Below, piece by piece: positions 26,866 through 60,909 of a DNA stretch of 64,000 nucleotides; position 1 is the stretch's first letter, and the number at the start of each line of letters is the position of its first letter. Origin of the DNA: Nocardioides jensenii JCM 1364 = NBRC 14755 (GTDB taxonomy: Bacteria > Actinomycetota > Actinomycetes > Propionibacteriales > Nocardioidaceae). Both the position numbers and the translations under genes were made by a program. Below the pieces are notes generated by a model, which worked only from the letters and a program-made list of their open reading frames with translations, was not told the origin of the DNA and did no database searches. The stretch is taken from positions 1-64,000 of the forward strand of contig NZ_BCRJ01000011.1 of the NCBI RefSeq assembly GCF_001552535.1, written 5' to 3'.

Positions 26866-27315
26866 GTGGCTGTTCCTACCACTGATCGCGCCGGGGATGT
26901 GTACGACGCGGCCCCGGACTTCGTCTACGCGGTCTCGCTGCTCGCCGCGCTCGAGGACGCGACCGGGCAGGAGGAGCACGCCATCGTGTTGCCGTTCCTG
27001 GGCATGGCCCGCGCCGAACTCACCGAGTTCGGGCAACGGCGGCCCTCGCACTACGTCCCGGTCGAGGTGGGTGACCTGCGGTCGGGGCTGGCCGACCTCG
27101 AGCAGCGCCTCACGGCGCTCCTCGCGGACTCGCAGGTGCTCCAACACAGCCTCCGCCTCCACTCAGCCCGCAGGCTGCTACGTCGCGGGGCCACGCTGCA
27201 CCGCCGGGGCGCGCTCGCCTCGACCAAAGAGCCCCGCTCGCTCACGGCCACCCCCGAGCGGAGGCCCGGCCGGACCCGGTCAGTGTCGGACGGTCTTGGG
27301 AGAGTTGACCCATGA
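26866..27315 (+). CDS. Hypothetical protein of the conjugative element
   Basis: 149 aa from GTG 26866, chosen for AAAGGA 9 nt upstream; the frame is open further upstream with no better start. The N-terminal part (DVYDAAPDFVYAVSLLAALE) looks helical. The C-terminus is Arg-rich and probably disordered. Its stop overlaps the ATG of the DUF1016 gene (ATGA), which confirms the frame. Function unknown. A 39-aa ORF (26708-26827) overlapping the helicase stop is an alternative coupled frame. Confidence 0.6.
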   Translation: MAVPTTDRAGDVYDAAPDFVYAVSLLAALEDATGQEEHAIVLPFLGMARAELTEFGQRRPSHYVPVEVGDLRSGLADLEQRLTALLADSQVLQHSLRLHSARRLLRRGATLHRRGALASTKEPRSLTATPERRPGRTRSVSDGLGRVDP

Positions 27316-36341: not shown

Positions 36342-36377
36342 CCCGAACCTCTACTGCTTGAAGAAAGGAACCATCTC

Positions 36378-36575
36378 ATGAACGAGTCCACCCACCTGAA
36401 GATGGCGATCGAGTACTGGCGCTCCCGCTGGGAGGTCGCCCAGCGAGACGAACGCGGAGCCTCGGCACCGGAGTACCTGGTGCTGCTGCTCGGCATCCTG
36501 GCGATCGCGGCACTGGCGATCATCGCCGTGCGCACCTTCGTCACCAACAAGGGCAACGAGCTCAACGGCCAGTAG
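36378..36575 (+). CDS. Flp-type pilin
   Basis: 65 aa, a typical actinobacterial Flp pilin. Prepilin cleavage site RDERG/ASAPEYLVLLLG with Glu at +5 of the mature protein, then a hydrophobic helix to about residue 55. The major pilus subunit is inferred from size and position. Good ribosome-binding site (GAAAGGAA). Confidence 0.85.
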   Translation: MNESTHLKMAIEYWRSRWEVAQRDERGASAPEYLVLLLGILAIAALAIIAVRTFVTNKGNELNGQ

Positions 36576-36624
36576 GACCGCAGATCCACGCTGCTACTGG
36601 ACAACGCGACGAAGAAGACCAGCC

Positions 36625-37038
36625 ATGACCATTCGGAAGCGCCTCCGGCCCCTGGGGTGCCTGCTGCCGCGCCGCCGCGACGAGCGCGGCATCGCGGCCC
36701 CGGAGTTCGTGGTCGTCATGCCGCTGGTGATGCTGGTCTTCCTGATGCTGGTGCAGTGGTCGGTGCAGTTGTACAACGACCGGATCGTGCACGCCGCGGC
36801 CCGTGAGGCAGCGGTCGACGCGGCCTCCTGGGAAGGCACCGAGGACGCTGGCAGGCAGACCGCCAACGAGTACCTGGCCGACTCTGGCAGCGACCTGTCC
36901 AACACCAGCGTCAAGATCAAGGTGGGGGCGACCGAGGTCACCGTCACCGTCTCCGGCGAGGTGATGACTCTCGTGCCCGGCTTCACCAAGCAGGTCTCCG
37001 CGACTGCCACCGTGCCACGGGAGAGGTTCGCAGAATGA
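36625..37038 (+). CDS. tadE: TadE-like minor pilin
   Basis: 137 aa. RRDERG/IAAPEFVVVMPLVM has the same pre-cleavage motif as the Flp pilin and Glu at +5, then a transmembrane helix and an extracellular beta-rich domain (KIKVGATEVTVTVSGEVMTL). Overlaps the next gene by 4 nt. Confidence 0.85.
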   Translation: MTIRKRLRPLGCLLPRRRDERGIAAPEFVVVMPLVMLVFLMLVQWSVQLYNDRIVHAAAREAAVDAASWEGTEDAGRQTANEYLADSGSDLSNTSVKIKVGATEVTVTVSGEVMTLVPGFTKQVSATATVPRERFAE

Positions 37039-37751
37039 CGCGGCCGCCGAGCGCGACACCAGACTGGCGAGACGTCATCGGCTCCTTCAGCCACGACGGC
37101 CCCGGCGGCGATGAAGCGCTCGCAGTCCAGCATCCGGACCTGATGGCCGCTCTCCAGGAGCTGACGCCCGACGACGAGCCGCTGAAGATCGGCGGGGAGA
37201 GCGTCACCCGCCAGACAGATGGGTCTTGGCGAGTCGGACGCGACAGGAACCTTGCCTCGCCGTGGGTCGTGGTCCAGTCGCTCCGTTCCTCCCGCCACCC
37301 CTACTCGCGCCACGGCCGTTCCTGGCGAGAGCGTCTTCGCGCACCCCGGGACGAGCGTGGCTACGCCGCCGTCGAGCTGCTGGCGATGACTACCGTGCTC
37401 GTCGGATTTATCACCGTCGTCGTCGGCGGCGGACGGATAGTCGACTCGAACAGCCAGGTTGATGACGCTGCCTATGCGGCCGCGCGGGCAGCATCCCTGG
37501 AATCGAACTTCCAGGCAGGACAGATCGCCGGCCGAGACGCTGCGGAGGATGCGCTGGCCGACCGGGGCAAGGCCTGCACCCGCCTGACCGTGTCGTTCGC
37601 GGGAACCGACTTCCGCACCTCAGGACACGTGAGGGTCGAGGTCACCTGCCACGCGAACCTGAGCGACGTTGTCGGGTTCGGCCTGCCTGGCGCCAAGAAC
37701 TTCACCAGCACGGCTGTGGTCCCTATCGAGCAGTACCGGCGGCTGCCGTGA
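37035..37751 (+). CDS. TadE-like minor pilin with long N-terminal extension
   Basis: 238 aa. The pilin core starts late: RDERG/YAAVELLAMTTVLVG lies near residue 108, so about 107 residues precede the prepilin site. The extension (DWRDVIGSFSHDGPGGDEAL, then KIGGESVTRQTDGSWRVGRD) is polar and would sit in the cytoplasm until cleavage. Prepilin leaders are normally 5-30 residues. A downstream start near residue 90 is possible but lacks a clear ribosome-binding site. The extracellular part has two cysteines. Confidence 0.75.
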   Translation: MTRPPSATPDWRDVIGSFSHDGPGGDEALAVQHPDLMAALQELTPDDEPLKIGGESVTRQTDGSWRVGRDRNLASPWVVVQSLRSSRHPYSRHGRSWRERLRAPRDERGYAAVELLAMTTVLVGFITVVVGGGRIVDSNSQVDDAAYAAARAASLESNFQAGQIAGRDAAEDALADRGKACTRLTVSFAGTDFRTSGHVRVEVTCHANLSDVVGFGLPGAKNFTSTAVVPIEQYRRLP

Positions 37752-44302: not shown

Positions 44303-45121
44303 ATGCTCACCCGGACCCGACACGTCTACCAGTCAAAGCTGGTTGACCCCGACACCGAATGGACCCGCCGCAGGCTCCAGATCCTGCTGGGGGCCGTGGC
44401 CGTCGTCGTCCTCGCCATGGCAGCGGGGGCCGTGTGGTCGGTGGTCAGCATGCTCACCGGCTCCTCGTCCGGCGACGGAACCGGGTCCGATTCGGCACAG
44501 CCCGCCCAGGACCAGCTCGCCGACAAGCAGCTGCCCGACGCGCCCTTGGAGGCCGCACAGCCCGGAAGCCTGTCCTCGGGCGAGACCGGCACCCTCCAGA
44601 TCCCGGCACCGATGGAGGTGGGGGAGGTCGGTGTTGCGACCGGGTTCCCGCACACGCCGGAGGGCGCCCTGGCTCAGCTGGCCGCGATCGACACGACCGC
44701 GTTGACCTCGGCGTCGGTTCGAGTGGCCCAGGAGGTCATCACTGCGTGGGCCGCCCCTGGTGGCCCGACGGCCGAGAGCTGGTCGGGTGTGCGGGGCCTG
44801 GCCGCGCTCCTGGAGTCCGCCGGAATGTCCTCGGAGGCGCAGAACACGATCACGATCGGCGCAGAGCCGAAGATGGGGTTCATCAAGGGCACGGTCGGGG
44901 ACGACTTCGTCATTCCGTGCATCGACTTCATCATCACCGCCACCACCGCGTCAGGCCAGCCGCAGCAGGTCGCGGCCGCCGACTGCCAGCGCATGGTGTG
45001 GCAGGACGGCCGATGGGTGATCGGCGAGGGCGAGGAGCCGTCACCGGCGCCGTCGCTGTGGCCCGGCTCCCAGGCCTCCTTCGACGCCGGCTACCAGTGG
45101 CTGGAGGTGCCCCAGTCATGA
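44303..45121 (+). CDS. VirB8-like T4SS inner-membrane protein
   Basis: 272 aa: a short cytoplasmic tail with WTRRRLQILLGAV leading into one transmembrane helix (about 27-50), an Asp/Gln/Pro linker, and a periplasmic-type domain whose C-terminal half (IGAEPKMGFIKGTVGDDFV, CIDFIITATTASG, WQDGRWVIGEGE) has the NTF2-like beta pattern of VirB8/TcpC proteins. 1 nt after the VirB2-like gene. Confidence 0.72.
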   Translation: MLTRTRHVYQSKLVDPDTEWTRRRLQILLGAVAVVVLAMAAGAVWSVVSMLTGSSSGDGTGSDSAQPAQDQLADKQLPDAPLEAAQPGSLSSGETGTLQIPAPMEVGEVGVATGFPHTPEGALAQLAAIDTTALTSASVRVAQEVITAWAAPGGPTAESWSGVRGLAALLESAGMSSEAQNTITIGAEPKMGFIKGTVGDDFVIPCIDFIITATTASGQPQQVAAADCQRMVWQDGRWVIGEGEEPSPAPSLWPGSQASFDAGYQWLEVPQS

Positions 45122-46506
45122 GCTCAGTCATGAGCACGCAGACCGTTGCGGGCATCGTCCCCATGATCGATCTCAACCCCTTGGACTGGCTTGGGGACAA
45201 GGCCAAGGAGGGCCTGGCCGACGGGTTCACGTCGATGATGATGTCGATCTGGTCGGGCGCATTGTGGCTGCTCAAGACCGCCTTCGGACTGATCGACAAC
45301 TTCACCCCCAACGTCGCCGACCCCGACCTGGCCAAGCTGTACTCGGTCACCTTGTGGATCGCCCTGGTGATCGCCCTGGTGATGGCGTTCGGCCAGATCG
45401 GCCTCGCGGTCATCCGGCAGGACGGCCGTGGGTTCGGCACCCTGGCGGCCGGGGTGGTCCAGTACGGCGTCGTCCTGTCCTGCTGGATCACCGTGAGCGC
45501 TGGGTTCATCGCCGCCGCCTCCGGGCTGACCAAGGGCATCTTGGACACGCTGCTCGGTGTCGACAGCTTCTCCGGCTACGCGGCCGGCGACGGGTTCGTG
45601 GACCGCGTCTCGGGCACGACCCAGGCAGCCACGCTCGGGATCTGTGCGCTGTTCATCCTGATCCCGGCGTCCTTCGGTCACATGGTGATCATGATGGTGC
45701 GCTCCGCGGCGCTGCTGATCCTGGTGGCCACCATGCCCATGGCTGCCGCGGGAGCGCTGTCGGAGGGCACGAAGTCGTGGATGTGGAAGTCGATCCGCTG
45801 GTTCTTGGCCTGCGTGCTGATGGAGCCGCTGCTGGCGCTGGTGGTGGGAATGGGCACGCAGTTCGCCTGGGCCGGCATGCCCGACGGCCAGGAGAAGGGC
45901 CTTGGCGACAATCCGCTGCACTTCTCCTCGACGTCAGAGAACATCGGCATGTCCGTCGTCGGGTCGATCATCATGCTGGTGGCCTGTTTCATGCCGCTGG
46001 TGTTGTTCCGGCTGCTGGCCTTCGTCGACCCCGGCACCGCTTCGGGTGCCTCGTTCCGGTCGACGATGGACGCCAACGGCGGCGTCGCCGGACTGCTTCG
46101 GGGCAAGGGCGCCGGCGGCCAGGCGTCCGGCTCTGGTGCTGCCAGCGAGACCGCCTCGGACGGCCGCACTACTTCAGAGAACGGTGCTGACGCTGAAACC
46201 GCGAACCGGTTCCAGTCCTCGGGGTGCAAGAAGCTCGGCGGCAAGGTCGGCGGGGTCGTCGGCGGGGCGATGGAGAAGACCGGGAATGTCGCCCAGGCCG
46301 GCGCCTCGATGAGCGTCGACGTGCTCGGCCAGTCCGGCATCGGCAACCAGGGCTACTACCCGACCGACCACACCCCCAAGCAGAAACGTCAGGGACAGCA
46401 GGGACAGAAGCTCCGGCCCCTCAACGACACCAACGGCGACGGCGTCGCCAACGACATTCCACCCGAGGCCCAGGCCGCAGTTGAGGACGGAGCATTCATC
46501 GCATGA
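45118..46506 (+). CDS. VirB6/TrbL-like T4SS channel protein
   Basis: 462 aa from ATG 45118, overlapping the previous stop. Six or more hydrophobic segments between residues 40 and 330 (e.g. LWIALVIALVMAFGQIGLAV, ALLILVATMPMAAAG), then a polar Gly/Gln-rich C-terminal tail of about 140 residues ending near NDTNGDGVANDIPPEAQ. VirB6/TrbL proteins form part of the inner-membrane channel. Confidence 0.82.
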   Translation: MSSVMSTQTVAGIVPMIDLNPLDWLGDKAKEGLADGFTSMMMSIWSGALWLLKTAFGLIDNFTPNVADPDLAKLYSVTLWIALVIALVMAFGQIGLAVIRQDGRGFGTLAAGVVQYGVVLSCWITVSAGFIAAASGLTKGILDTLLGVDSFSGYAAGDGFVDRVSGTTQAATLGICALFILIPASFGHMVIMMVRSAALLILVATMPMAAAGALSEGTKSWMWKSIRWFLACVLMEPLLALVVGMGTQFAWAGMPDGQEKGLGDNPLHFSSTSENIGMSVVGSIIMLVACFMPLVLFRLLAFVDPGTASGASFRSTMDANGGVAGLLRGKGAGGQASGSGAASETASDGRTTSENGADAETANRFQSSGCKKLGGKVGGVVGGAMEKTGNVAQAGASMSVDVLGQSGIGNQGYYPTDHTPKQKRQGQQGQKLRPLNDTNGDGVANDIPPEAQAAVEDGAFIA

Positions 46507-48041
46507 GTGTCTACGGAGCATCCGCGACCCGTGACCGGCAGGCCTGGCTCTTCGGGCTCACCGGCCCCCAGTTCTTCATGGTGCTGGCCGCCGGGTTCCC
46601 GACCTGGATGGCGATCGCCATCGGGCAGTGGCTCGCACTGCTCGGCCTCGTCCCGATGTGGGGCGTGATTGCGCTACTGACCTGCCTACCGATCCGAGGC
46701 CACTCGGCCTTCCAGTGGATCGGCGTCCTGTTCCGGCACCTGGCCGGGGCAGCGTTCGGCTGGTCCCGGTTCCAGTCCAAGGCCGCCGCCGGTGACCTCG
46801 ACCTCGGCGACGCCGACGACGATGAGGACGACGGCGACGCGGGCGAGGCGGACCTGCCCGGCATCCTGTCCAGCATCCAGATCCACGACGGCCCGCCGAT
46901 GACCGGACAGACCGCACGCCCGGCGATCATCCAGAACCACGCAACCCGCACGTGGGCGGCCACCGCGCGGGTCGTCCACCCCGGCATCGGGATGAGCGAC
47001 GACGCAGATCGGTTCCGCATGGGCGCCGGCCTCACCGAGATGATGGAGGCCGCGACCGCCGGCAACCAGATCGACCTGGTCGTCGTTCAGGTCCGCACCA
47101 TCCCCGACGACGGCACCGAGCGCGACGAGTGGGTGCGTCACAACGCGCGCCCCGACGAGCCCGAGGTTTCAGCCCGGGTCAACGCTCAACTGGAGTCGAT
47201 GACCGCCGGCGCGGCCGTGCGCCGCGAGGCGTTCATTACCGTGGTGGTTCGCGAGGACGTCATCAACAAGGACGCCAAGCGCGCCGGGCGAGGCGTGATG
47301 GGCCGGGCGAGGATCCTGTACTCGGTGCTGGCCGAGGTCGAGGCCCGACTAACCGGGTCGATCGGCTGCACCCGGGTGTACTGGCTCGACAGCTCCGAGC
47401 TCGCAGTGGCGATCCGCACCGGGTTCGAGCCCGGTGATGCGCCCGCGCTCGCGGACGCGGCGATCCACCACCGCGAAGCCCCGGCGATCACGGCCGGTGT
47501 CCCGCTTGGCGCCGCCGGTCCGACGAACGCGTCGACCGCGCTGCGGTCCTACCGGCACGGGGAGTGGGAGTCGATCTCCTCCACCATCCTGCTGCCCCGC
47601 AAAGGCGCCCGGATGGGTGCGCTGGCGCGGGTGCTGGTCCCATCGCAGCCAGGCGAGCGGCGCGCGCTGACGGTGTTCTACCGGCCCGTCTCGCAGCAGG
47701 CGGCCGACCGGGCCACCGGCCGGGCGCAGATGTCAGCGGTGATGGCCGGCACGCTGCGCGAGAAGGCCGGCAAGGTCGAACGGGCCAAGGACCGCCAGTC
47801 GGTCGGCAAGCTGCACGAGCGCGACGAGAAGCTCGAGATGGGTCGCTCACTGGTCAAGGTGTCCTCGGCCGTCTCGGTCACGGTTCCGGCAGGGTGGAAC
47901 ATCCAGGACTTCGGCCGCCGTCTCGACGCCTCCATTCGTATCAGCGGCTTCACCCCACTCCCTCTGGACGGGGCACACGACGCGGCCTTCGCCGTGTCCG
48001 CGATCCCGCTGGGGGCAGGCCTGCCGAAGAAGCGCCGCTAA
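46503..48041 (+). CDS. SCO6880 family T4SS protein (VirB3/VirB4-N like)
   Basis: 512 aa. Two close transmembrane helices at the N-terminus (QFFMVLAAGFPTWMAIAIGQ; LVPMWGVIALLTCLPI), an acidic stretch near residue 100 (DADDDEDDGDAGEAD), then a large domain lacking a P-loop. In actinobacterial T4SS the SCO6880 protein sits directly before VirB4 and supplies the VirB3/PrgI-like membrane part. ATGA overlap upstream. Confidence 0.85.
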   Translation: MSVYGASATRDRQAWLFGLTGPQFFMVLAAGFPTWMAIAIGQWLALLGLVPMWGVIALLTCLPIRGHSAFQWIGVLFRHLAGAAFGWSRFQSKAAAGDLDLGDADDDEDDGDAGEADLPGILSSIQIHDGPPMTGQTARPAIIQNHATRTWAATARVVHPGIGMSDDADRFRMGAGLTEMMEAATAGNQIDLVVVQVRTIPDDGTERDEWVRHNARPDEPEVSARVNAQLESMTAGAAVRREAFITVVVREDVINKDAKRAGRGVMGRARILYSVLAEVEARLTGSIGCTRVYWLDSSELAVAIRTGFEPGDAPALADAAIHHREAPAITAGVPLGAAGPTNASTALRSYRHGEWESISSTILLPRKGARMGALARVLVPSQPGERRALTVFYRPVSQQAADRATGRAQMSAVMAGTLREKAGKVERAKDRQSVGKLHERDEKLEMGRSLVKVSSAVSVTVPAGWNIQDFGRRLDASIRISGFTPLPLDGAHDAAFAVSAIPLGAGLPKKRR

Positions 48042-48128: not shown

Positions 48129-48287
48129 ATGGAGCACCAATCCGCCCTGCCGAAGGAGACACCTGTGATGTCGACGCGATCGAGGAACCGCTCGGACCTG
48201 GGCGCGGCGGGACCGCCGCTGGTCGGTCGCCTGCACGCGATGGCGACCACGCACCCCTCGCCGCGCGTGACGACGGGGGAGTGGTGA
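48129..48287 (+). CDS. 52-aa probable leaderless ORF before virB4
   Basis: Starts MEHQSALPKETPV, 4 nt after the second box of promoter C, without a ribosome-binding site. Its stop overlaps the virB4 GTG (GTGA), so its translation would feed virB4. Basic, Ser/Thr/Arg/Pro-rich; no family recognised. Internal GTG/ATG at 48165-48170 preceded by AAGGAG is an alternative start. Confidence 0.5.
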   Translation: MEHQSALPKETPVMSTRSRNRSDLGAAGPPLVGRLHAMATTHPSPRVTTGEW

Positions 48288-49825
48288 GCGTGGCGGCGAC
48301 CAAGACCCGCGCTCGTGGTGGCTCGAAGACCTCGCGGCCGTCGTCGCGGACGATCGACGACCTGCTGTCGGACTTCGGGACCACGATGCCGCGCAAGGCG
48401 GCTCCGGTCGCGGATCCCCCGGCTGAAAAACTGTTCCCCGGTTCGGTCAAGCCCAACGGCGTACGCCGGATGGGGCATGGGTGGGCGGCCACGATGCCGC
48501 CGCTGGCCGGCTATCAGATGACCTCGGAGGAGACCCCGGTCCTGTGGCCTCTGATCTCCGGTGACGGGCTCCCGCCGTGGGGTGCCGAGATGGGATACGA
48601 CGTCCTCTCGGGCGGCAAGTTCTACTGCGACCCGATGGGCTGGGTGCTCGACGACTCGATCCCGGTCACCAACCCCAACATCTTCATCTTCGGCAAGCCG
48701 GGCCGCGGGAAGTCCGCGACCGTCAAGGCGTTCATGCTCCGGATGATCCGATACGGCTACCGGTCCCTGGTGCTCGGCGACGTCAAGGACGAGTACGAGG
48801 ACCTCGCCCGGTTCCTCGGCGTCGACCCGTTCCGCATCGGCCCCGGTCTCGCGGGCCGGATCAACCCACTCGACCTCGGCCCGCTCGGCGTGGACTGGGA
48901 CAAGCAGACTCGCGAGGAGCAGCACCGCCGCGCGAACGTGACCTTCAACCGCTGGCTGTTCCTGATCCGGGGCCTGATCGGCTCCCAGGGCGTGACGTTC
49001 ACCCCGACCGAGGAGCGGGTCATCAACAAGGTGCTGCGGCACCTGACCGGCTGGTCTGTTGGCGCCTCCCGGCTCAAGCCGGTCACCATCCCGCAAGTGT
49101 GGGCAGCACTGGACTCGCCCACGAAAGACCTGGTCGCGGACTGCCGCTACGCCACCGAGCAGGACTTCTACGACGGCACCCGGCCGCTGCGCGACGCGCT
49201 GGGTGCGCTGTGCGAGGGATCGCTGCAGGGCATGTTCGACACCGAGTCGACCTTCAACCCCGACTGGCGTGCACCGATCCAGACGCTGTCGCTGCGCTCG
49301 CTTCACGAGACCGGCAACAAGGTCGCCGTGGGCATCGCGCTGATGTGCCTCAACTCCTGGGGTCAGGGCATGCGGGAGACCGCATCGGCAGGTGATCGGC
49401 GGATCGTGCTCCGAGACGAGGCGTGGCTGCAGACCCGGCTGTCGCTGGACGCGGTCATGGCGCTGGACGCCAACCTGCGGCTTTCTCGCACCGAGGGCGA
49501 CATCCAGCTGGTGACCTACCACAAGCCCTCCGACCCGCTCTCGGCCGGCGACGAGGGCAGCCAGGCCGCTCAGATCGCCAAGGACCTGCTCAACCTCTCC
49601 GACGTGCGGATCTTGATGGGTCAGGACGACTCGGTCGCCGACGAGCTCGGCCGTCTGATGGGGCTCTCGGAGATGCAGCAGTCCGTGATCACGAACTGGG
49701 CGATGCAGGAGAAGGGCCGCGCCCTGTGGATGGTCGGCGACCAGCGGTACAAGGTGCAGACGCTGCTTACGCCTCTCGAAAGGCGGCTCACGTACACCAA
49801 CGACGCGATCGACCCGGTGACCTGA
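48284..49825 (+). CDS. virB4: VirB4-like T4SS ATPase
   Basis: 513 aa from GTG 48284. Walker A FGKPGRGKSATVKAFMLR near residue 130, LVLGDVKDEYEDLARFLG after it, Walker B-like RRIVLRDEAWLQTR, and the Gln/His motif DIQLVTYHKPSDPLS. It lacks the N-terminal VirB4 domain, which is consistent with SCO6880 just upstream providing that part. ATP-driven core of the secretion machine. Confidence 0.9.
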   Translation: MSVAATKTRARGGSKTSRPSSRTIDDLLSDFGTTMPRKAAPVADPPAEKLFPGSVKPNGVRRMGHGWAATMPPLAGYQMTSEETPVLWPLISGDGLPPWGAEMGYDVLSGGKFYCDPMGWVLDDSIPVTNPNIFIFGKPGRGKSATVKAFMLRMIRYGYRSLVLGDVKDEYEDLARFLGVDPFRIGPGLAGRINPLDLGPLGVDWDKQTREEQHRRANVTFNRWLFLIRGLIGSQGVTFTPTEERVINKVLRHLTGWSVGASRLKPVTIPQVWAALDSPTKDLVADCRYATEQDFYDGTRPLRDALGALCEGSLQGMFDTESTFNPDWRAPIQTLSLRSLHETGNKVAVGIALMCLNSWGQGMRETASAGDRRIVLRDEAWLQTRLSLDAVMALDANLRLSRTEGDIQLVTYHKPSDPLSAGDEGSQAAQIAKDLLNLSDVRILMGQDDSVADELGRLMGLSEMQQSVITNWAMQEKGRALWMVGDQRYKVQTLLTPLERRLTYTNDAIDPVT

Positions 49826-49898: not shown

Positions 49899-52565
49899 GT
49901 GAAGAAGGGCATCCTCCTCGGCCTGCCGCTGGTGCTGATCGCTCCGCTGATGCTGCTCATGCTGGGCATGGGGAGCGCGAACATCGAGGCGGTCCGCGCG
50001 GCATGCGCCACCACGACCAACTCAACCGCGGGCGGGTCCTTCGGGATCGGCACGCTGAACTGGCGCGGCGCTTCGCACTACAACAAGAACCCCCACCCCG
50101 GCGAGCGGCCCTACAGCCAGCGTGTGCCGAACATGGCGACCAAGATCGGCGCCTCAGGGGCCTCGATCATCGGGTTCCAGGAGTTCGAGCCGCCACAGGC
50201 TGAGGCCTTCCTCGAGGCCACAGACGGGGCGTGGAAGATCGTGGCCGGCAAGCGCCGAGGGCACTCATCCACGGCGGACGCGATCGCCTATCAGCCCTCG
50301 GCCTGGAACGTCGACGAGGTCCGCTACGTCTCGATCAGGTACGGCGGCCCGATGATCCAGGTCCCTCTGGTGCGGTTCACCTCCACTTCAGGACTCGGGT
50401 CGATCTGGGTGCTCAACACCCACAACCCCGCCAACGCGGTCGGCGGCTCGGACGCGATGCGCGATGCCGCCGTCCGCGCCGAGGCCGAGGCGTTGGGGAA
50501 ACTGCAAGCCGCCGAGCCGAGCACGCCGCTGTTCCTCGTCGGCGACATGAACGACAAGGCCCGGTTCAAGCGACTGTTCTTGTCCCTGGCGTCGGGCTGG
50601 TCGGCCGCCAACCCCAGCGACCAGCAGATCGACTGGATCATGGGCAGCCCTGCCGTCACCTTCTCCGGCACCGTGGTCGACCGGAGCACCAACGACAAGG
50701 CGCACAACTACACCGACCACCCCTTCGTTCACACCACCGCCCAGCTGGCCGGCTCAGAGTCCGGTCGACCAGGAGCTAGCGCTGGTCTGGGTGTGATGCC
50801 CGCCAGCATCACGGCCACGCCCGGTGGGCCAGTCCGCGGTCAGGTGCTGGTCGCGAACGCCAACATCAAGACCCGCGGCGGCTTCAACCCCGGTGTCCGC
50901 GCCCTCGCCGGCCCGTCGCCGGACTTCATCACGCTCAACGAGGTCGAGGACGTGCCGCTGTCGCAGATGCGTTCCGCCGCGCCCGGCTACGACGCCTACC
51001 GCGAGGCGCAGCCGGCGGACACAAATGATGCTGGGCAGGCCATGGGGAGCGCGATCATGTGGCGCGCGGACACCTGGACGATGCTCGACGGTGGCCGCGT
51101 CAAGATCGTCGACGACGACCACACCGTGTTCAAGGGCACGAACAAGCTGTGGGACCGGTACGCCGCCTGGGGCATCTTCCAGCGCTCCGACGACGCGGTC
51201 GTCTCGATCATCGCGGTCCACCACATGAACAACGTCTATCGGTTCCCCCGCCAGTGGGGGAACCCGCCGATGAGCCGCGCCGAGCAGTACGGACTCGGCA
51301 TGGACTACCTGACCGACCTGGTCGGCGTCCTGGCCCCGTACGGGCCGGTGCTGGTGGGTGGCGACATGAACTCCCACCCCGGGGATGGGCCCAACGCGGC
51401 CGCGCCACGAATGGCGGCGGCCGGCTACCGCTACACCAAGGACTCCGGCGTCATCTACAACTTCTACGCCGCCCCCGTGGAAGTCACCAAGACCTGGGAG
51501 ATCAGAAAGGCCGCCGTCCACTCCGATCACCCCGCGTTGTTCACACGCATGGCCATGAACGGTGCCGGTCCCGGCACGAACGCACCCCCCGGCACCCAGC
51601 CCGGCGCAACCAGGCCGGCCGGCTGCCCACCGTGCCCGACCTCCGGGAACCTCGGCACACTGCTCCAGCCGGTCGCTGCGACCGGCAACCTCGAGGCCGC
51701 CAAGGTCGCGGCCTCGGCCGCCTACCAGGCCGGCTTCCGCGGGGAGGACCTGGTCACCGCGGTGGCCATCGCCCGTGTGGAGTCGACCTGGGATCCGAAG
51801 GCCACCAACGGGAGCCACTACGGGTTGTGGCAGATCTCCGCACAGCACAAAGGCAAGGTGCCCGGCTGGAACACGCAGGCCGACATCTTCGACCCGCTCC
51901 TCAACGCCCGCTACGCCTTCGCGCTCTACTCCGCTCGACCCGGGTCGGGTGAGGCCAAGTTCGCCGACTGGATCCCCTTCGAGAAGACCGACTACCACCA
52001 GTTCCTCGACGTCGCCCGCCAGGCGGTCGCCGCAACCGGCGGAGGCACCACGAACGTCGGCAACCCCGGCTGCACCGCCTCGCCGATCCAGGTCGCCGGT
52101 GAGCTCTCGGCCGCACTCAAGGCCCGCCTCGACGCCATGATGAACACCTCCAACGGCCTCTGCGGGCTGTCGTGGACCAGCGGCGCTCCCTGCACCTACG
52201 ACAACCAGTGCCCCAAGGTCGTCGACGCGCTCTACGGCGGCCCTGGCGTCGGCCGGGGCTACGGAAACGGGCAGGACGTCGCCCAAGGCATCATCAACGC
52301 CGGACTGGCCCAGTCCCACGGGACAGGCCTCGACCCGCTCCCGCCCGTGGGCGCCGTGGTCTCCTACAACACCGGCAACGGCGTCGGCCACGTGGCGATC
52401 TACGTGGGCGGCGGCAAGATCTTCGGCAACGACTACGGCTGTAGCGCGAACGGCGTCTATGGCTGCGTCGGGTTCGCCGACGTCCACACCCCCGGTGGCT
52501 CGGTCACCTGGGCCCTGCCCAAGCAGGCGTTTGACCTGGGCGGGATGCCGGCGGCGGCCGCGTAA
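49899..52565 (+). CDS. Secreted double EEP nuclease - lytic transglycosylase - CHAP protein
   Basis: 888 aa. N-terminal signal/anchor (residues 5-30). First endonuclease/exonuclease/phosphatase domain (about 48-283): IIGFQEFEPPQ, LNTHNPAN, LFLVGDMNDK, YTDHPF. Second EEP domain (about 308-555): DFITLNEVEDV, AVHHMNN, VLVGGDMNSHPGD, HSDHPALFTR. Both keep the metal/catalytic Glu, His, Asp-x-Asn and Asp-His residues. Then a goose-lysozyme/SLT-like domain (about 605-720) with catalytic Glu in AIARVESTWDPKATN and GLWQIS, and a C-terminal CHAP-like domain with Cys in DNQCPKVVDALYG and His in GHVAIYVGGGK. The last two open the cell wall for the T4SS, as VirB1/TcpG do. What two extracellular DNase-I-like domains do is not known; DNA or phospholipid cleavage are options. 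Confidence 0.85.
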   Translation: MKKGILLGLPLVLIAPLMLLMLGMGSANIEAVRAACATTTNSTAGGSFGIGTLNWRGASHYNKNPHPGERPYSQRVPNMATKIGASGASIIGFQEFEPPQAEAFLEATDGAWKIVAGKRRGHSSTADAIAYQPSAWNVDEVRYVSIRYGGPMIQVPLVRFTSTSGLGSIWVLNTHNPANAVGGSDAMRDAAVRAEAEALGKLQAAEPSTPLFLVGDMNDKARFKRLFLSLASGWSAANPSDQQIDWIMGSPAVTFSGTVVDRSTNDKAHNYTDHPFVHTTAQLAGSESGRPGASAGLGVMPASITATPGGPVRGQVLVANANIKTRGGFNPGVRALAGPSPDFITLNEVEDVPLSQMRSAAPGYDAYREAQPADTNDAGQAMGSAIMWRADTWTMLDGGRVKIVDDDHTVFKGTNKLWDRYAAWGIFQRSDDAVVSIIAVHHMNNVYRFPRQWGNPPMSRAEQYGLGMDYLTDLVGVLAPYGPVLVGGDMNSHPGDGPNAAAPRMAAAGYRYTKDSGVIYNFYAAPVEVTKTWEIRKAAVHSDHPALFTRMAMNGAGPGTNAPPGTQPGATRPAGCPPCPTSGNLGTLLQPVAATGNLEAAKVAASAAYQAGFRGEDLVTAVAIARVESTWDPKATNGSHYGLWQISAQHKGKVPGWNTQADIFDPLLNARYAFALYSARPGSGEAKFADWIPFEKTDYHQFLDVARQAVAATGGGTTNVGNPGCTASPIQVAGELSAALKARLDAMMNTSNGLCGLSWTSGAPCTYDNQCPKVVDALYGGPGVGRGYGNGQDVAQGIINAGLAQSHGTGLDPLPPVGAVVSYNTGNGVGHVAIYVGGGKIFGNDYGCSANGVYGCVGFADVHTPGGSVTWALPKQAFDLGGMPAAAA

Positions 52566-52657: not shown

Positions 52658-53242
52658 ATGGACGTACGGATCGGCACCACAGTCGACGGCCAGGCCGCCG
52701 GGTTCGACACCAGCAGCGCCCGGCCGCTGATGCTGGTCGGCGACGTCGGCCGAGGCAAGACCACCACCGCGCGCTACCTCACCCGGTGGTGGCTGGCGAA
52801 CACCCGGCGGCATGCCCACGTGTACGCCCAAGCACCCAGCGAATGGGCAGACCTGCGCTGCGAGCCCGAGCACCCCGACCAGCTGGAAAACCCGGTCGGC
52901 AGCGACCGCCTCCTGGAAACCTGCCTGGTCGTGGTCGACGACATGGACCTGCTCGACGACAGCCGCATCTCCTTCCTGCCGCGGGGAAGGGCGCGAACGA
53001 TCCTGACCTCTCACGGCGGCAACACCCTGGCCGGCCGCGCGCTGCTCGACAACGAACTCGACTGCCTGGGCCTGGTCCGACGCGATCACGCCGACCCTGC
53101 CGAGGCCGCAGTCCTGGACGGGCAGGGCCGCCTGGACTGGCCGATCGGCACTGTCGCGGTCATCCCGGATCAGCGGGGGCCGATGGACTTCCCGTGTCAC
53201 CGCTGGCAGGCACCGGCCGGTGCATCGGCGGTGGCGCGATGA
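52658..53242 (+). CDS. Small P-loop ATPase of the T4SS region
   Basis: 194 aa. Walker A VGDVGRGKTTTARYL, Walker B CLVVVDDMDLLDD, and sensor-like RARTILTSHGG. It resembles a stripped-down FtsK/TraG-type motor without membrane segments. First gene of the coupling-protein operon, probably leaderless behind promoter D. A role with VirD4 in substrate handling is inferred from position. Confidence 0.78.
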   Translation: MDVRIGTTVDGQAAGFDTSSARPLMLVGDVGRGKTTTARYLTRWWLANTRRHAHVYAQAPSEWADLRCEPEHPDQLENPVGSDRLLETCLVVVDDMDLLDDSRISFLPRGRARTILTSHGGNTLAGRALLDNELDCLGLVRRDHADPAEAAVLDGQGRLDWPIGTVAVIPDQRGPMDFPCHRWQAPAGASAVAR

Positions 53243-53727: not shown

Positions 53728-53761
53728 CCGACCCCAAATGCACAGCGGAAAGGAAGCCAAC

Positions 53762-55237
53762 GTGACCACAGCCCTCAAGCACGTGAACCCCCACGAGGTG
53801 GGCTGGCGGCTCGGCCAGGCCGGGCGCAGCGGACCCGAACTCTGGGTGCCCTTCGACCGAACCACGTGCGTGATCGGCCCCCAGGGTTCCGGCAAGACCC
53901 TAGACCTGCTGGTGCCCGCCCTGCTCGATACGCCCGGTGGCGCGCTGGTGACCCTCACGAAGCCCGAGGATCTGTTCCTCACCCTGGAGGCCCGGCAACG
54001 CGACGGCCGGCCAGTCGCGGTCCTCGACCCGTTCAACGCCGCCCCCGGCACCCCGGAGTTGGTGTGGGACCCGATCAACGGCTGTGAGGACGCGATGCTC
54101 GCTGAACGGCGGGCGAAGGCGTTCGCGAACGGAACCATCAAGGGCGCCACCTCTCAGTCCTCCGACCAGGCCGCCCGGTTCTACGCCGGCGAATGCGCCA
54201 AGGTCCTGCAGGCCTACTTCCACGCCGCGGCGATCGCCGGCATCGGTTTGGACGAGGTGCTGATGTGGGTCTCCAGCCCGCGCGAGTACCCGCAGGCCGA
54301 GGAGATCCTGCGTACCCACCCGGCCGCGGAGCCGCTGTGGGACGGTCTACTGCGCGGAGCCCTGTACGGCGACGAGCGGACCGCCGGCAACACGACCACC
54401 ACCGTCCAGCAGTCCATGGCGCTGTTCTTCCAGCGCTCGATCCGGGAACGCTGCGTCCCCTCCGCGACGCGAGCGGCGACCGACCTCGAGACCCTGATCC
54501 GGGCCCGCGGCACGCTCTATCTGCTCGGCCGCGACGACCCGTACGCGAGTGCGTCGCCGCTGATGACGGCAGTCACCGAGCAGATCCTGGACACCGCCAA
54601 GCGGCTTGGGGAGACCTCCCCGCACGGGCGGCTATGCCCACCGTTCCTGGCCTGCTTGGACGAGCTCCCGTCGACCGCGCCGATCCCGACGCTGTCGACC
54701 CGGATGGCCAACGAACGTGCCCTCGGGCTCTCCTTCATCCTCGCTGCCCAGACCTGGCGGCAATTCGTGGTCTGCTACGGCGAGGACGAGGCCCGCACCA
54801 TCTACGGGTTGTCGAACAACCTGGTGGTATTCGGTGGCGGCAAGGACATCCGCTTCTACCAAGAGCTCTCCGACCTGATCGGGTCGACCAGCCACACCGA
54901 GACCCGGTACTCGGCGCGCGGCCACGAATTGTTCGGCGTGATGGACCGGTCCTATGACCAGCGGCGGGTGCCGATCCTCGAACCGGCCGAGCTGCGCCGC
55001 ATCGAGCAGCGCAAGGCCCTGGTGCTGGCGGAGATGTACGACCCGATCATCGCGAACCTGCACCGCTGCATCGACGGCAAGCGCGGCAAGGAGCTGCTGG
55101 CCGCGCAGCAGCGTGCCCGGCTCGCAGCGCGCGGTCACGAGACCGTCGCACAGCCCATTCACCCGGTGACCGTCGAGCCCGCGACGCCGACCGAGCCGGT
55201 GGCCAGGACCCGGCAGCGGCTCGGGATGCCCAAGTAG
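53762..55237 (+). CDS. VirD4/TraG-type coupling protein, soluble ATPase part
   Basis: 491 aa from GTG 53762 with AGGAAG 7 nt before; ATG 53738 is possible. Walker A VIGPQGSGKTLDLLVPALL, Walker B FLACLDELPSTAPI, and SFILAAQTWRQF as the downstream motif of the TraD/VirD4 family. No transmembrane helix; the anchor seems to be the previous gene. It delivers DNA-relaxase complexes to the channel. No relaxase gene is visible in the window. Confidence 0.9.
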   Translation: MTTALKHVNPHEVGWRLGQAGRSGPELWVPFDRTTCVIGPQGSGKTLDLLVPALLDTPGGALVTLTKPEDLFLTLEARQRDGRPVAVLDPFNAAPGTPELVWDPINGCEDAMLAERRAKAFANGTIKGATSQSSDQAARFYAGECAKVLQAYFHAAAIAGIGLDEVLMWVSSPREYPQAEEILRTHPAAEPLWDGLLRGALYGDERTAGNTTTTVQQSMALFFQRSIRERCVPSATRAATDLETLIRARGTLYLLGRDDPYASASPLMTAVTEQILDTAKRLGETSPHGRLCPPFLACLDELPSTAPIPTLSTRMANERALGLSFILAAQTWRQFVVCYGEDEARTIYGLSNNLVVFGGGKDIRFYQELSDLIGSTSHTETRYSARGHELFGVMDRSYDQRRVPILEPAELRRIEQRKALVLAEMYDPIIANLHRCIDGKRGKELLAAQQRARLAARGHETVAQPIHPVTVEPATPTEPVARTRQRLGMPK

Positions 55238-55251
55238 GCGAGGAGCAGCCG

Positions 55252-55953
55252 ATGACGACACAAGGGCTCACCGGGCGGCACCCCTCCCATGTCGCCTCCC
55301 GCGCAGCGGGTGGGGCCGCCGCACCGAAAGGCCACGCGATGATGCCGCTGGTCGGGCTGATGGTGCGCCCGCTCCCCGAGCCCGGCCCCACCATCCGCAC
55401 GGCGATGGAGCAGCTGCAGCAGGCCAGCGTCGAACCGCCAGCCGATGAGGACGAGCTGCGCGAGCTCGCGCAGATGCCGCGGCCCTGGGACCCGGCCACA
55501 TGCACCGGGCTGATGCGCTCCGAGCTGTGGACGTGGCTGGACCTAGTCGCGATGTGGGTCAACGAGCAGCACCTGTGGAACGTGACCCGCCCCGGGATCC
55601 CTGAGTGCTGGCCCGCGCACCCGCACCTCGTGCACGACCTCGCCGTGCTGGCCTGCAGCCGCTACTACACCAGCTTCGCCGTCACCCCGGCCGCGCTGGA
55701 GGACTGGCACCGCTACGCGCTACCGGGGTTCCTCGAGCGGCTGCGAGACCGGCTCGGCGACGGCTGCCAGCCAAGCAAGCACCAGCCCCGGCCCCGGCAC
55801 GAACGCGACGAAACCCACGCCGCCACGCCCGTGCGTCGCGGCCGCAAGCAGCGCTACCGAGACGACGTCGACCGCGCCGGTGAACTGGCCGCGGCCGCCC
55901 CCCAACCCGACTACGCCAAGCCCGACCACGACGACCTTCACGAAAGGTGGTAG
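55252..55953 (+). CDS. DUF4913 protein
   Basis: 233 aa. Core with WTWLDLVAMWVNEQHLWNV and WPAHPHLVHDLAVLACSRYY, typical of DUF4913, a family of actinobacterial T4SS/ICE loci without known function. His/Asp/Arg-rich C-terminus. Start preceded by GAGGAG. Confidence 0.75.
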   Translation: MTTQGLTGRHPSHVASRAAGGAAAPKGHAMMPLVGLMVRPLPEPGPTIRTAMEQLQQASVEPPADEDELRELAQMPRPWDPATCTGLMRSELWTWLDLVAMWVNEQHLWNVTRPGIPECWPAHPHLVHDLAVLACSRYYTSFAVTPAALEDWHRYALPGFLERLRDRLGDGCQPSKHQPRPRHERDETHAATPVRRGRKQRYRDDVDRAGELAAAAPQPDYAKPDHDDLHERW

Positions 55954-56662
55954 CCGCGATGGCCACTCAGACAACAACAGCCTGCGGCTCCGGCTCGTCG
56001 ACGACCAGCAGGACCAGCCCGCCGAGGCGGCTGCACCAGATGGCGAACTCACCGCCACGCAGGCCGCCGCGTTCGCCGCGCTGGTCGCCGATGCCAACCA
56101 GACCGCGGTCAGCTACACGCTTGACCAGATGAACGCCGAGCAGCTGCGGTCGCTCGCGATCGCACTGGCCACCCAGGTCAACGCCGCCGAGACCGCAACC
56201 GGGGAGGTGGCCGACGTCGGACCAGACGGCATCTGCGCGATCGCGATCGCCACAGCCGCGCAGCCCTTCGGCACCACCCGCGACGCGGTGCTCAGCGCCG
56301 ACCGCCACCGCGCGGTGACCGACGCCCGCGCCGTGGCCATGACGGCAGCCCGGCGCGGAGGCCTGACCCTGCCGGCGATCGCGGCCTACTTCGGCAAGGA
56401 CCACACCAGCGTCATGTACGCCCAGAACAAGGTCGCGAACAACCCTCGGCTCAACGCAGTGTGCTCCCGCATCGTCGACCAACTCGATGAGCACTACGCG
56501 GAGCCGACCCGCATCCCCGCCGAGGACCCCGCCGCCCCCGGGAGCGGGCGCAGCACAACGCTGCAGCTGGCCGCCCTCGACCAGGCCCACAACGAGACCG
56601 CCCGTCGGCAGCAGGACGAAGACGGCCAGCGGCTCGCGGTCTCGGCCGCGCCCGCCAGATAG
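55880..56662 (+). CDS. DnaA domain-IV-like DNA-binding protein
   Basis: The coding frame contains AVAMTAARRGGLTLPAIAAY then FGKDHTSVMYAQNKV, the DnaA C-terminal helix-turn-helix with the DHTS signature that contacts DnaA boxes; there is no AAA+ domain. About 90 helical residues precede it. The start is puzzling: the best ATG with ribosome-binding site (55959, AAAGGTGG) is in another frame, and the only in-frame ATG (55880) overlaps the previous gene. A one-base indel near 55960-55990 would explain this. A role in element replication or ori recognition is inference. Confidence 0.7.
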   Translation: MNWPRPPPNPTTPSPTTTTFTKGGSRDGHSDNNSLRLRLVDDQQDQPAEAAAPDGELTATQAAAFAALVADANQTAVSYTLDQMNAEQLRSLAIALATQVNAAETATGEVADVGPDGICAIAIATAAQPFGTTRDAVLSADRHRAVTDARAVAMTAARRGGLTLPAIAAYFGKDHTSVMYAQNKVANNPRLNAVCSRIVDQLDEHYAEPTRIPAEDPAAPGSGRSTTLQLAALDQAHNETARRQQDEDGQRLAVSAAPAR

Positions 56663-57659: not shown

Positions 57660-59444
57660 ATGATGTTGCGACGACTCAGCATCAGGAACTTCCGCGGGAT
57701 CAAGTCCTGCGACTGGTCCATAGACCAGCGTCTGATCGCCATGGTCGGGCCCGGCGACAGTGCTAAGACCACACTGCTCGACGCCGTTGGCTTGGTCCTA
57801 AGTCCGAACTACAGCCCGCAGTTCACCGATGCGGACTTCTTCAATTTGGATATGTCGGCGCCCCTCACGATTGAAGCCGTCATCACGGAGCTGCCGGACT
57901 CGTTCGTCAAGGAGAGTCAGCTGGGCAAGGAGCGCTCTGGCCTGAAGTCAGACGGCACCCTGGTTCATGACCCACTCGACGACGCCGAGGAGTGCCTGGT
58001 CATCCGGTTGACGGTGACCCGTGAACTCGAGCCGACGTGGGAGGTCGTGCGACCGGGCTCGGATGAGACCCGTGGGATCACCGCTTCTCAGCGGCGCCAA
58101 CTCGGCTTCTTTCGTTTGGGGGAGCGGCCGGACTTCCATCTGCGGTGGGCGCGCGGGTCAGCGCTCTCGGGCCTTACTGAAGGGAGTGATGGTGCATCGT
58201 CGGTCATTCTCGACGCGCAACGCGAGGCACGCCGTGCCGTCTTCGACGCTGAGTCGAACCCGCTTCACGCGGCGGCAGGGACGGCCCAGTCGTCGGCCAC
58301 CAAGCTCGGCATTTCCCCGTTCACGAAACTGCGACCCGGGCTGGAGCCAGGCACCGCTGCATCCGCCCACGCCCTGATGCTCCACGACGGCGAGGTTCCG
58401 TTGTCGAGTTACGGCCTCGGCACCCGTCGCCTCACGAGCCTTTCTGTCCAGGACCAGGCCATGGCTGGCGGGTCGATCATCGGTATCGATGAACTTGAAC
58501 ACGGCCTGGAACCGCATCGCCTGGCGCACGTCCTGCGCTACCTCAAGAGGCGAGCGGATGACCAGCACCTGCAAGTCATCCTGACGACGCACTCCCCGAT
58601 CACGGTTGAGACCCTCGAAGTGCAGCACCTCGCGGTGATTCGTACGGACGGCGGCACGACGTCCTGCCGCGCCGTCCCGGACCACTTGGAGAATGCTCAA
58701 GGGGCCTTCCGCTCCGCCCCTTCGGCGCTATTGGGACGCCGCGCAATCGTCGGAGAGGGGGCAACCGAAGTTGGCTTCCTGCGCGGTCTGATCCGTCATT
58801 GGGATGAGCTGCGCCTTGCGGTCGAACTAAGTCTGGTCTCAGCGATCGGCACCGTGATCGTCAACGGCAGCGGAGGCACGCAACCGACACAGCGCGCCCG
58901 CAACTTTCAGAGCCTCGGCTATCCAAGCCTGCTCCTCATGGACAACGATGACCGAACGGTTGACGACGAGGTCGCTTCGGCTGTGGCTGACGGGGTTGTG
59001 GCCGAACGATGGTCCTACGGTCGGGCGCTTGAAGATGAGGTTGTGCAATCACTCACGGTCGAGGGCTTGCAGGCTCTCCTCGATCTCGCCATCGAACTTC
59101 GCGGGGAGGAGTCGATCCGTGCATCGGTCGGCGCCAAGCTCGGTGACGCACAGCTGACGGGGACCGATCTTGCGCAGTGGCAGACTGAAGCAGCGGTTGA
59201 CGAGAGCGGTCTCCGCGACGCGGTCGCCGCCGCAGCCAAGGGAACAAAGAGTAAGGGCAACGCCTGGTTCAAGCGTGAAGATGCTGGCGAGTCGTTGGCG
59301 GCAGTCGTGATGACGGACTCGGGCAACCTCGAAGGCACCGCACTGATGAACATCATCGGTCGCGTCCAGGAGTTCGCCTACTACGAAGCCCCCGTCCCAG
59401 ACGCGGCAGCCGAGCAGCAGACGGCCGAGACAGCCGATGCCTGA
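57660..59444 (+). CDS. gajA: Gabija GajA, OLD-family ATPase-TOPRIM nuclease
   Basis: 594 aa from ATG 57660 (ATG 57663 also possible). ABC-type ATPase: LRRLSIRNFRGIKSC, Walker A MVGPGDSAKTTLLDAV, in which Ala replaces the usual Gly before Lys, signature-like LSSYGLGTRRLTSLS, Walker B IIGIDELEHGLEPHRL, and TTHSPITVE. TOPRIM domain from about residue 360: AIVGEGATEVGFLRGL with the acidic Glu, and LLMDNDDRTVDDE with the DxD pair. GajA is a sequence-specific nicking nuclease that nucleotides hold in check; phage nucleotide depletion releases it. Length is close to known GajA. Confidence 0.92.
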   Translation: MMLRRLSIRNFRGIKSCDWSIDQRLIAMVGPGDSAKTTLLDAVGLVLSPNYSPQFTDADFFNLDMSAPLTIEAVITELPDSFVKESQLGKERSGLKSDGTLVHDPLDDAEECLVIRLTVTRELEPTWEVVRPGSDETRGITASQRRQLGFFRLGERPDFHLRWARGSALSGLTEGSDGASSVILDAQREARRAVFDAESNPLHAAAGTAQSSATKLGISPFTKLRPGLEPGTAASAHALMLHDGEVPLSSYGLGTRRLTSLSVQDQAMAGGSIIGIDELEHGLEPHRLAHVLRYLKRRADDQHLQVILTTHSPITVETLEVQHLAVIRTDGGTTSCRAVPDHLENAQGAFRSAPSALLGRRAIVGEGATEVGFLRGLIRHWDELRLAVELSLVSAIGTVIVNGSGGTQPTQRARNFQSLGYPSLLLMDNDDRTVDDEVASAVADGVVAERWSYGRALEDEVVQSLTVEGLQALLDLAIELRGEESIRASVGAKLGDAQLTGTDLAQWQTEAAVDESGLRDAVAAAAKGTKSKGNAWFKREDAGESLAAVVMTDSGNLEGTALMNIIGRVQEFAYYEAPVPDAAAEQQTAETADA

Positions 59445-60909
59445 CGACCCTTCCCTGGAGGATGGTGTCAGAGCGATACGCGAGGGGATGCCATGCTCGG
59501 TGTCGCTCCCTGCGGGATGTGGAAAGACCGAGCTCATCGCCGCTGTTGTCGCGGCAACGGCAGCCGACGGCGGTACAGCTCTCGTCCTCACCCACACCCA
59601 TGCCGGTGTCGACGCACTTCGGCGGCGTATGGCCAAGTTCGAGGTCCCACGGGATCAGGTAGTTGTTCGGACCATCGACTCTTGGGCCTTCGACCTGATC
59701 AGTCACTTCCCGCTCCTCGCCGAACTCGACGTCCCGCCATCACCCGACTGGAACCGATCGGCCGAGTATCACCGAGGCGCGGCCACGGCCGCGCAGTCCC
59801 AGGCAGTGCGCAAGATGTTGCGTCTGAGCTACGACATGGTGCTTGTTGATGAGTATCAGGACTGCCTCATCGACCAGCATGGTCTCGTCGTCGCCGTCGC
59901 ACAGGCAGTGCCAACAACTGTCCTCGGTGATCCTCTGCAGAGCCTGTTCAACTTCGGCGGGAACCAGCCGGTGGATTGGGCGATCCACGTGCTGCCCACT
60001 TTCCCCCTCGTCGAAGTCGACTATCGGCCGCGGCGTTGGCCCGAGAACGAAGCGCTCGGCACCTGGCTGGTCGAGATCCGGGAGAACTTGCTGCAGGGCC
60101 GGCCGATCGACTTCTCGACTGCCCCCATCGCCTTAGTGCGACGCGACGATGCACGAACGTTCGTGAGGGTCTGCTTCCGTGCCTTGAAACTCGACGGCGC
60201 CGTCGCAGTCCTCGGCCAATTCCGCAACGATTGCGTCAGCGCCGCCTCCAACCTGCAGGGCACCTACTCGGTCATGGAGGCGATCGACGAGAAGGTCCCC
60301 GCCAAGCTGGCGAGCACCATCGACACCAAGCCTGCCGCCCAAGTGGCGAAGGCGCTCGTGGACTTCGCGATCAACGCCTCGGCCGGACTGGCGGGGCACA
60401 TCCCCAGCGCTAAACGAGTTCGGCTTGGAAATGGCCAGACGTTCACGACGACCAAGGATGAGCTCAAGAGCGCGTATGCCGCGATCAACAACGTTCGATC
60501 GAAGGTATCGCCGACTGCAATCCGTGCGGCGTTGACTGAGATCGCCGCGCTACCTGGCGTCACCATCCATTGCCGGGAAGCCTGGTACGAGGTCACTCGG
60601 TCGATCGCCGTCGCAGAGACCGACGACTGCACTGTCGCTGAGGCACTTCTGCTGACTCGGAATCACGCCCGAGTTGCTGGCCGGCGACCGAGCGACCGCA
60701 TCGTGACCAGGCCCCTTCTTGCAAAAGGTCTGGAGTACGACCACGTCGTGATCCTAGATCCCAGCCGCTACTCGGCTCAGGAGCTCTACGTGGCGCTGTC
60801 GCGGGGAGCACGGTCGGTGACCGTAATCGCCGAGAGCCCAGTCCTGGCGGCCCGTCGTATGGCCGGAGGCTCCCCTGAAGAGAGCGTCCCGCCGATCCGA
60901 GCCAGCTGA
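59437..60909 (+). CDS. gajB: Gabija GajB, UvrD-like helicase
   Basis: 490 aa, overlapping gajA by 8 nt. SF1 motifs: Walker A SLPAGCGKTELIAAV, motif Ia LTHTHAGVDALRRR, motif II MVLVDEYQDC, motif III VLGDPLQSLFNFGG, motif VI-like ELYVALSRGARSVTVI. Length and motif set match GajB, the partner of GajA in Gabija complexes. The pair is complete and in the usual order. Confidence 0.92.
   Translation: MPDDPSLEDGVRAIREGMPCSVSLPAGCGKTELIAAVVAATAADGGTALVLTHTHAGVDALRRRMAKFEVPRDQVVVRTIDSWAFDLISHFPLLAELDVPPSPDWNRSAEYHRGAATAAQSQAVRKMLRLSYDMVLVDEYQDCLIDQHGLVVAVAQAVPTTVLGDPLQSLFNFGGNQPVDWAIHVLPTFPLVEVDYRPRRWPENEALGTWLVEIRENLLQGRPIDFSTAPIALVRRDDARTFVRVCFRALKLDGAVAVLGQFRNDCVSAASNLQGTYSVMEAIDEKVPAKLASTIDTKPAAQVAKALVDFAINASAGLAGHIPSAKRVRLGNGQTFTTTKDELKSAYAAINNVRSKVSPTAIRAALTEIAALPGVTIHCREAWYEVTRSIAVAETDDCTVAEALLLTRNHARVAGRRPSDRIVTRPLLAKGLEYDHVVILDPSRYSAQELYVALSRGARSVTVIAESPVLAARRMAGGSPEESVPPIRAS

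Follow-up and report, generated by a model that had tools for sequence, protein, structure and literature searches.

A predicted VirB1-like T4SS hydrolase from Nocardioides extended by two EEP domains

The window analysed here, a 64,000-nucleotide stretch of Nocardioides jensenii DNA, encodes an 888-residue protein that is a predicted VirB1-like Gram-positive T4SS hydrolase, a variant extended by EEP domains with respect to the hydrolase classes described in PMC12857230 and PMC12102498. We read it as the wall-opening hydrolase of an actinobacterial conjugative element, with its first EEP domain (EEP1) cutting a phosphodiester polymer of the envelope, and we put the probability of this reading at roughly 0.45. 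In its favour are linkage of the gene to a T4SS, the complete catalytic motifs of EEP1, purifying selection, and retention of EEP1 where the second EEP domain (EEP2) is absent. Little is understood of how conjugation machines pass a thick Gram-positive wall with anionic polymers in it; if a T4SS hydrolase has its own phosphodiesterase, either peptidoglycan would not be the sole barrier cut, or extracellular DNA would be managed at the contact.

Domain architecture

The gene (49899-52565, + strand) is open for 888 codons from a GTG start, and its translation, Pfam matches and homologues agree on the order EEP1-EEP2-SLT-CHAP. A lone hydrophobic segment at residues ~4-24 (49908-49970, +) may be a signal peptide or membrane anchor: mean Kyte-Doolittle hydrophobicity reaches 2.58 at residue 5, against a best value of 1.17 elsewhere in the protein. 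Since there is no other such segment, the enzyme domains are predicted to lie outside the membrane.

Pfam family PF03372 (EEP) matched two stretches (E=7e-16; 59.1 bits versus a curated cut-off of 24.5), and a genome scan with PF03372 matched EEP1 and EEP2 separately (37.5 and 28.3 bits). On the combined evidence of Pfam, the alignment of relatives, the AlphaFold2 model and fold matches, EEP1 spans residues 47-285 (50037-50753, +) and EEP2 residues 310-557 (50826-51569, +). The SLT/lysozyme-like domain (51696-52043, +) was matched at residues ~606-677 by SLT_3 (E=2.8e-11; 44.2 bits versus a cut-off of 27) and by SLT (E=3.5e-08), and its sequence contains the catalytic Glu628. The CHAP-like domain (52101-52538, +) gave a weak match at residues 767-835 that is sub-threshold by Pfam (18.5 bits, E=0.003, cut-off 26), with Cys771 and His831 present. 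The domains originally predicted were recovered in one ORF: the two EEP domains by Pfam and the model, SLT by Pfam and its Glu628, and a putative CHAP domain by the sub-threshold match together with its Cys and His. This arrangement is kept at 70-95% identity in elements of several genera, and we therefore consider the ORF to be real rather than a product of chance.

Gene neighbourhood and host element

The gene sits in the order SCO6880/VirB4-like/EEP gene/ATPase/TraG, all on the + strand. Upstream are a putative VirB6/TrbL-like T4SS membrane protein (44359-46506; weak TrbL match, E=0.067, with homologues at other loci), an SCO6880-family protein (46503-48041; NF042935, 403.8 bits versus a cut-off of 60) and a VirB4-like ATPase (48281-49825; VirB4-type NCBIfam matches below cut-off), which ends ~74 bases 5' of the EEP gene. 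Downstream are a small AAA ATPase (52658-53242; AAA_22, E=6.4e-07) and a TraG/VirD4-type coupling protein (53738-55237; TraG-D_C, E=1.1e-25), and a MobF/TrwC relaxase is encoded further along the contig (C11:71387-72607). The EEP gene thus occupies the usual place of a Gram-positive VirB1-type hydrolase, between the VirB4-like ATPase and TraG/VirD4. The window protein shares with VirB1-like hydrolases an SLT domain with its catalytic Glu and a gene beside those for VirB4 and the coupling protein, and the proposal that it is a secreted, T4SS-linked wall hydrolase in the VirB1 place was supported, with export predicted from the N-terminal segment.

Among named plasmids, the closest relatives of the protein are encoded by pNOCA01 (Nocardioides sp. 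JS614; 92.6%) and pTC1 (Paenarthrobacter aurescens TC1; 85.5%). PLSDB types both plasmids as conjugative, and both share the window gene order, except for an insertion upstream in pTC1. Given this likeness, the window most likely belongs to a conjugative element of the pNOCA01/pTC1 kind.

Several further genes were recorded around this region. Tad-pilus-like genes (T2SSE ATPase, T2SSF, TadE; 33059-37751, +) lie upstream of the T4SS, and TadE/TadG-like genes are found on pNOCA01 too. A small protein with a DnaA C-terminal DNA-binding domain (55880-56662, +; E=2.3e-12) has a counterpart after the coupling protein in both plasmids. PADLOC identified a Gabija defence pair 3' of the T4SS genes (57660-60909, +; GajA, E=1.5e-173; GajB, E=4.4e-140) and a YhcG/DUF1016-type PD-(D/E)XK nuclease typed as PDC-S02 (27312-28385, +), and it gave no match for the EEP1-EEP2-SLT-CHAP protein. 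An Eco57I-type methylase of 1337 residues (2220-6233, -) could be an enzyme of the restriction-modification or BREX-like kind. Four SCO6880-type T4SS loci are present in the genome (two on contig C8, one each on C3 and C11), along with five matches to TrwC-type relaxases; T4SS loci and relaxases together lie on C3, C8, C11 and C58.

Relation to known hydrolases

SLT followed by CHAP is the arrangement of the alpha class of VirB1-like hydrolases (see PMC12857230, PMC12102498). TraG of pIP501 (SLT and CHAP), PrgK of pCF10 (LytM-muramidase-CHAP) and Orf14 of Tn916 are likewise multidomain hydrolases encoded beside VirB4 and a coupling protein, but in the window protein two EEP domains separate the membrane segment from SLT. 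The term nuclease is absent in connection with VirB1 from both PMC12857230 and PMC12102498, and searches for EEP together with conjugation, teichoic acid or CHAP found this architecture undescribed in the mainly open-access literature covered. Close counterparts are a pA-N39-type hydrolase of Pimelobacter simplex (L019) and ~20 Nocardioides relatives, which combine both EEP types with a lysozyme-like domain in the same T4SS position; they differ in their order (EEP2-SLT-EEP1-x-M23), in having M23 in place of CHAP, and in keeping the EEP2 Asp (GVDFIF) that is lost from the window protein.

Predicted fold and active sites

The original prediction had called for structure prediction, which we ran with AlphaFold2 on residues 44-559 using an alignment of 8 close rows. 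The EEP fold was recovered in both halves, but with low-confidence detail: mean pLDDT was 65 and pTM 0.51, and with so shallow an alignment the details of the model are unreliable. Structure comparison matched 285 chains at Z>=5 (top Z 21.6), with ~residues 44-286 and 313-555 (model residues 1-243 and 270-512) matching EEP structures at Z 18-22, and the model clearly predicts the four-layer alpha/beta EEP fold for EEP1 and EEP2. Matches less than 1 apart in Z were counted as ties, and the fold does not prove the substrate. The EEP superfamily spans nucleases, lipid phosphatases and sugar phosphatases, among which fold does not decide.

The best solved matches of EEP1 were 3mpr (Z 21.6), the mannosyl-6-phosphatase BT3783 (4c1r, Z 20.4), 3g6s and 3l1w. 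The Bacteroides proteins 3mpr and 4c1r share the fold with EEP1 at Z 20-22 over ~220 residues, but at 17% identity and with no known wall-hydrolase domains or T4SS link; these two alone were recovered, as weak matches, in a sequence search against solved structures. EEP2 was best matched by Nocturnin (Z 18.9) and TDP2 (Z 18.6) at 12-14% identity, with neutral and bacterial sphingomyelinases lower (Z 15.6-17.8), and its profile had no match to PDB sequences at E 0.01. TDP2 and Nocturnin are intracellular, whereas EEP2 is predicted to be exported and is without one catalytic Asp. The TDP2 match led us to consider a TDP2-like role, removal of the relaxase from the strand 5' end; we set it aside on the missing Asp, the predicted export and a match at the level of fold only.

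Catalytic columns were read from EEP1 and EEP2 domains extracted from all relatives. EEP1 carries the full set (N54, E95, H175, D216, N218, D245, D273, H274), and the Asn, Glu, His, Asp-x-Asn, Asp and Asp-His motifs are conserved in every covering EEP1 sequence, down to ~35% identity; judged by these residues, EEP1 has what is expected of a catalytically competent EEP. EEP2 retains N322, E348, H441, D489, N491, D543 and H544 and falls one Asp short of that set: in its [VI]-D-[WFY]-[IV] motif the Asp is replaced by Ile519 (GVIYNFY, versus GVDFIFF in a sister family). We take this position to correspond to Asp212 of DNase I and to the equivalent residue of other EEPs. Ile occupies it in 14/14 window-type EEP2 domains (VIYNFY, VIYQFY), with the remaining motifs present, and the Asp is kept in pA-N39-type EEP2s (VDFIF, VDFVF) and in pB-N39 (IDYVF). 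By analogy, loss of the Asp212 equivalent should strongly weaken EEP2 catalysis; most likely the domain is weakened or non-catalytic and has been retained to bind or regulate. The claim that both EEP domains have intact catalytic residues therefore stood for EEP1 and failed for EEP2.

Distribution, domain shuffling and selection

A coupling protein was encoded within 19 kb at 22 of the 23 loci with T4SS-type EEP proteins, the exception (L057) being a truncated gene remnant, and 16 of the 23 had SCO6880 and VirB4. When 40 SCO6880/VirB4 loci from across the phylum were scanned with profiles of EEP1 and EEP2 and with a generic EEP motif, EEP was detected at none, and the idea of EEP as a general actinobacterial T4SS feature is not supported. 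All 40 had a VirB4-like protein and about a third M23 or SLT hydrolases; they include two further T4SSs of the N. jensenii genome (L131 and L132, contig C8), with M23 and without EEP. We conclude from such EEP-free loci that EEP was added, in one lineage, to an ordinary VirB1 role.

Within this lineage the domains have been lost and reordered. The window-type order EEP1-EEP2-SLT-CHAP occurs on Nocardioides and Paenarthrobacter elements, and many Nocardioides carry the reshuffled pA-N39 type, EEP2-SLT-EEP1-(uncharacterised part)-M23, of ~1,040-1,050 residues. At one locus (L112, genome G647) a clean in-frame deletion of ~213 residues has removed EEP2 and left the other parts of the protein untouched, and the second EEP-bearing T4SS of the N. 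jensenii genome (L056, contig C3) has EEP1 and no EEP2. EEP1 is therefore the constant member in the Nocardioides families and EEP2 the accessory. A different C-terminal end was seen at L016. pB-N39 (L020), whose T4SS is far more distant, has SLT-EEP-CHAP with a lone EEP of EEP2 type, so the general design can do without EEP1, a point against our favoured reading. With both EEPs, EEP1 alone or EEP2 alone, and in two domain orders, these natural variants can readily be compared with one another.

Purifying selection acts on all four domains: median pairwise dN/dS (omega) among ten window-type genes was 0.27 for EEP1, 0.30 for EEP2, 0.14 for SLT and 0.18 for CHAP. EEP2 is thus about as constrained as EEP1 although it lacks the Asp, in keeping with a role that is retained but non-catalytic or altered. 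EEP omega is ~2x that of SLT and CHAP, which also counts against the favoured reading.

Two proposed origins were rejected. A recent internal duplication does not agree with a quick tree in which EEP1 and EEP2 form separate, fully supported groups, with both types recurring in both domain orders; as to a phage origin, scanning IMG/VR with the full-length protein and with each of the two domain profiles gave no relatives, and a phage collection gave none for EEP1. At three other loci, a cassette of a recombinase, an HTH protein and a ~600-residue protein lies just 5' of the EEP gene (L018, 10358-13591; L019, 8318-11626; L058, 10533-13877), as read from annotation in L018 and L019 and from ORFs in L058; absent from the window, it may mark a repeated insertion spot before the hydrolase gene.

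Substrate and role of the EEP domains

EEP1 has numerous chromosomal relatives in Nocardioides: counting matches of every kind, those of T4SS type among them, 129 of 392 genomes of the order have one. The chromosomal relatives (L053, L055 and others) are ~35% identical to EEP1 and have all of its motifs but no wall-hydrolase domains; several also carry a fused type I phosphodiesterase domain (PF01663). In a sample drawn from top-scoring, related genomes, 23 chromosomal loci held LicD-family (15/23), sulfotransferase-like (16/23), PLD-like (13/23) and glycosyltransferase (8/23) genes, and 0/16 control regions from the same genomes held any of these. LicD proteins are phosphotransferases of surface polymers, so this neighbourhood points, indirectly, to a phosphodiester-containing surface polymer as the substrate of EEP1. 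By analogy, the LicD/PLD/glycosyltransferase context suggests a DNase no more than it does a phosphodiesterase of surface polymers.

We propose that the protein is exported and has a role in mating, in which the SLT domain would cleave glycan strands, the CHAP-like domain would cleave peptides, and EEP1, as a metal-dependent phosphodiesterase, would clear a phosphodiester polymer in the same gap. For this polymer we favour one of the wall, teichoic-acid-like or a phosphoglycan, with extracellular DNA as a close rival. A wall polymer is favoured by the LicD/PLD/sulfotransferase-like context, the type I phosphodiesterase fusions and the BT3783 match, though that context belongs to relatives of ~35% identity and comes from a sample of related genomes. 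The more specific idea, that a dedicated EEP-fold phosphodiesterase fused to peptidoglycan hydrolases strips teichoic-acid-like wall polymers at the mating site, is tentative and in our judgement rather doubtful; if true, one exported protein would cut glycan, peptide and polymer there. We know of no described EEP-fold teichoic-acid hydrolase, and a literature search for one found none. EEP2 may serve in binding or regulation, like the LytM and CHAP domains of PrgK, for which such a role is reported (PMC12857230).

The strongest competitor, in line with the original prediction, is that EEP1 is an extracellular DNase, serving to remove competing or matrix DNA where the cells mate, or to release phosphate or nucleotides. 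We regard this as a real possibility, though one we would not bet on: no catalytic motif of the metal-dependent EEP nucleases is missing from EEP1, predicted export and linkage to a DNA-transfer machine suit it, and the PF01663 fusions of relatives, a type I phosphodiesterase/nucleotide pyrophosphatase domain, would fit extracellular nucleic-acid breakdown. However, EEP1 is matched best in structure by Bacteroides EEPs, a sugar phosphatase among them, rather than by DNase I-type enzymes, the chromosomal relatives lie in LicD/glycosyltransferase contexts, and the strand in transfer could be put at risk by a nuclease free at the contact. The original prediction of a nuclease pair was not supported as put forward, given an EEP2 without its catalytic Asp and dispensable in relatives, a mannosyl-6-phosphatase among the EEP1 matches and the LicD context, and no specific support emerged for an attack on the recipient.

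It is improbable that the targets of the EEP domains are membranes or lipids, with cleavage of phospholipid or sphingomyelin-like head groups helping to fuse or breach the recipient envelope: the EEP2 half does match sphingomyelinases, but these rank under TDP2, Nocturnin and the Bacteroides EEPs, and sphingomyelin is not known in the hosts. We also think it unlikely that neither EEP domain is catalytic and that the two serve the wall hydrolase as binding modules or spacers; the Asp lost from EEP2, its deletion in relatives, the raised EEP omega and the PrgK precedent for regulatory domains (PMC12857230) would all fit, but the EEP1 catalytic motifs are all kept in members down to ~35% identity. 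We continue to prefer a wall-opening hydrolase whose EEP1 cuts an envelope polymer.

The chromosomal loci (L053-L055, L059-L078) form a conserved Nocardioides cluster of one or two EEP proteins, some of them PF01663-fused, together with LicD and methyltransferase, PLD-like, sulfotransferase-like and acyl-CoA dehydrogenase-like genes.
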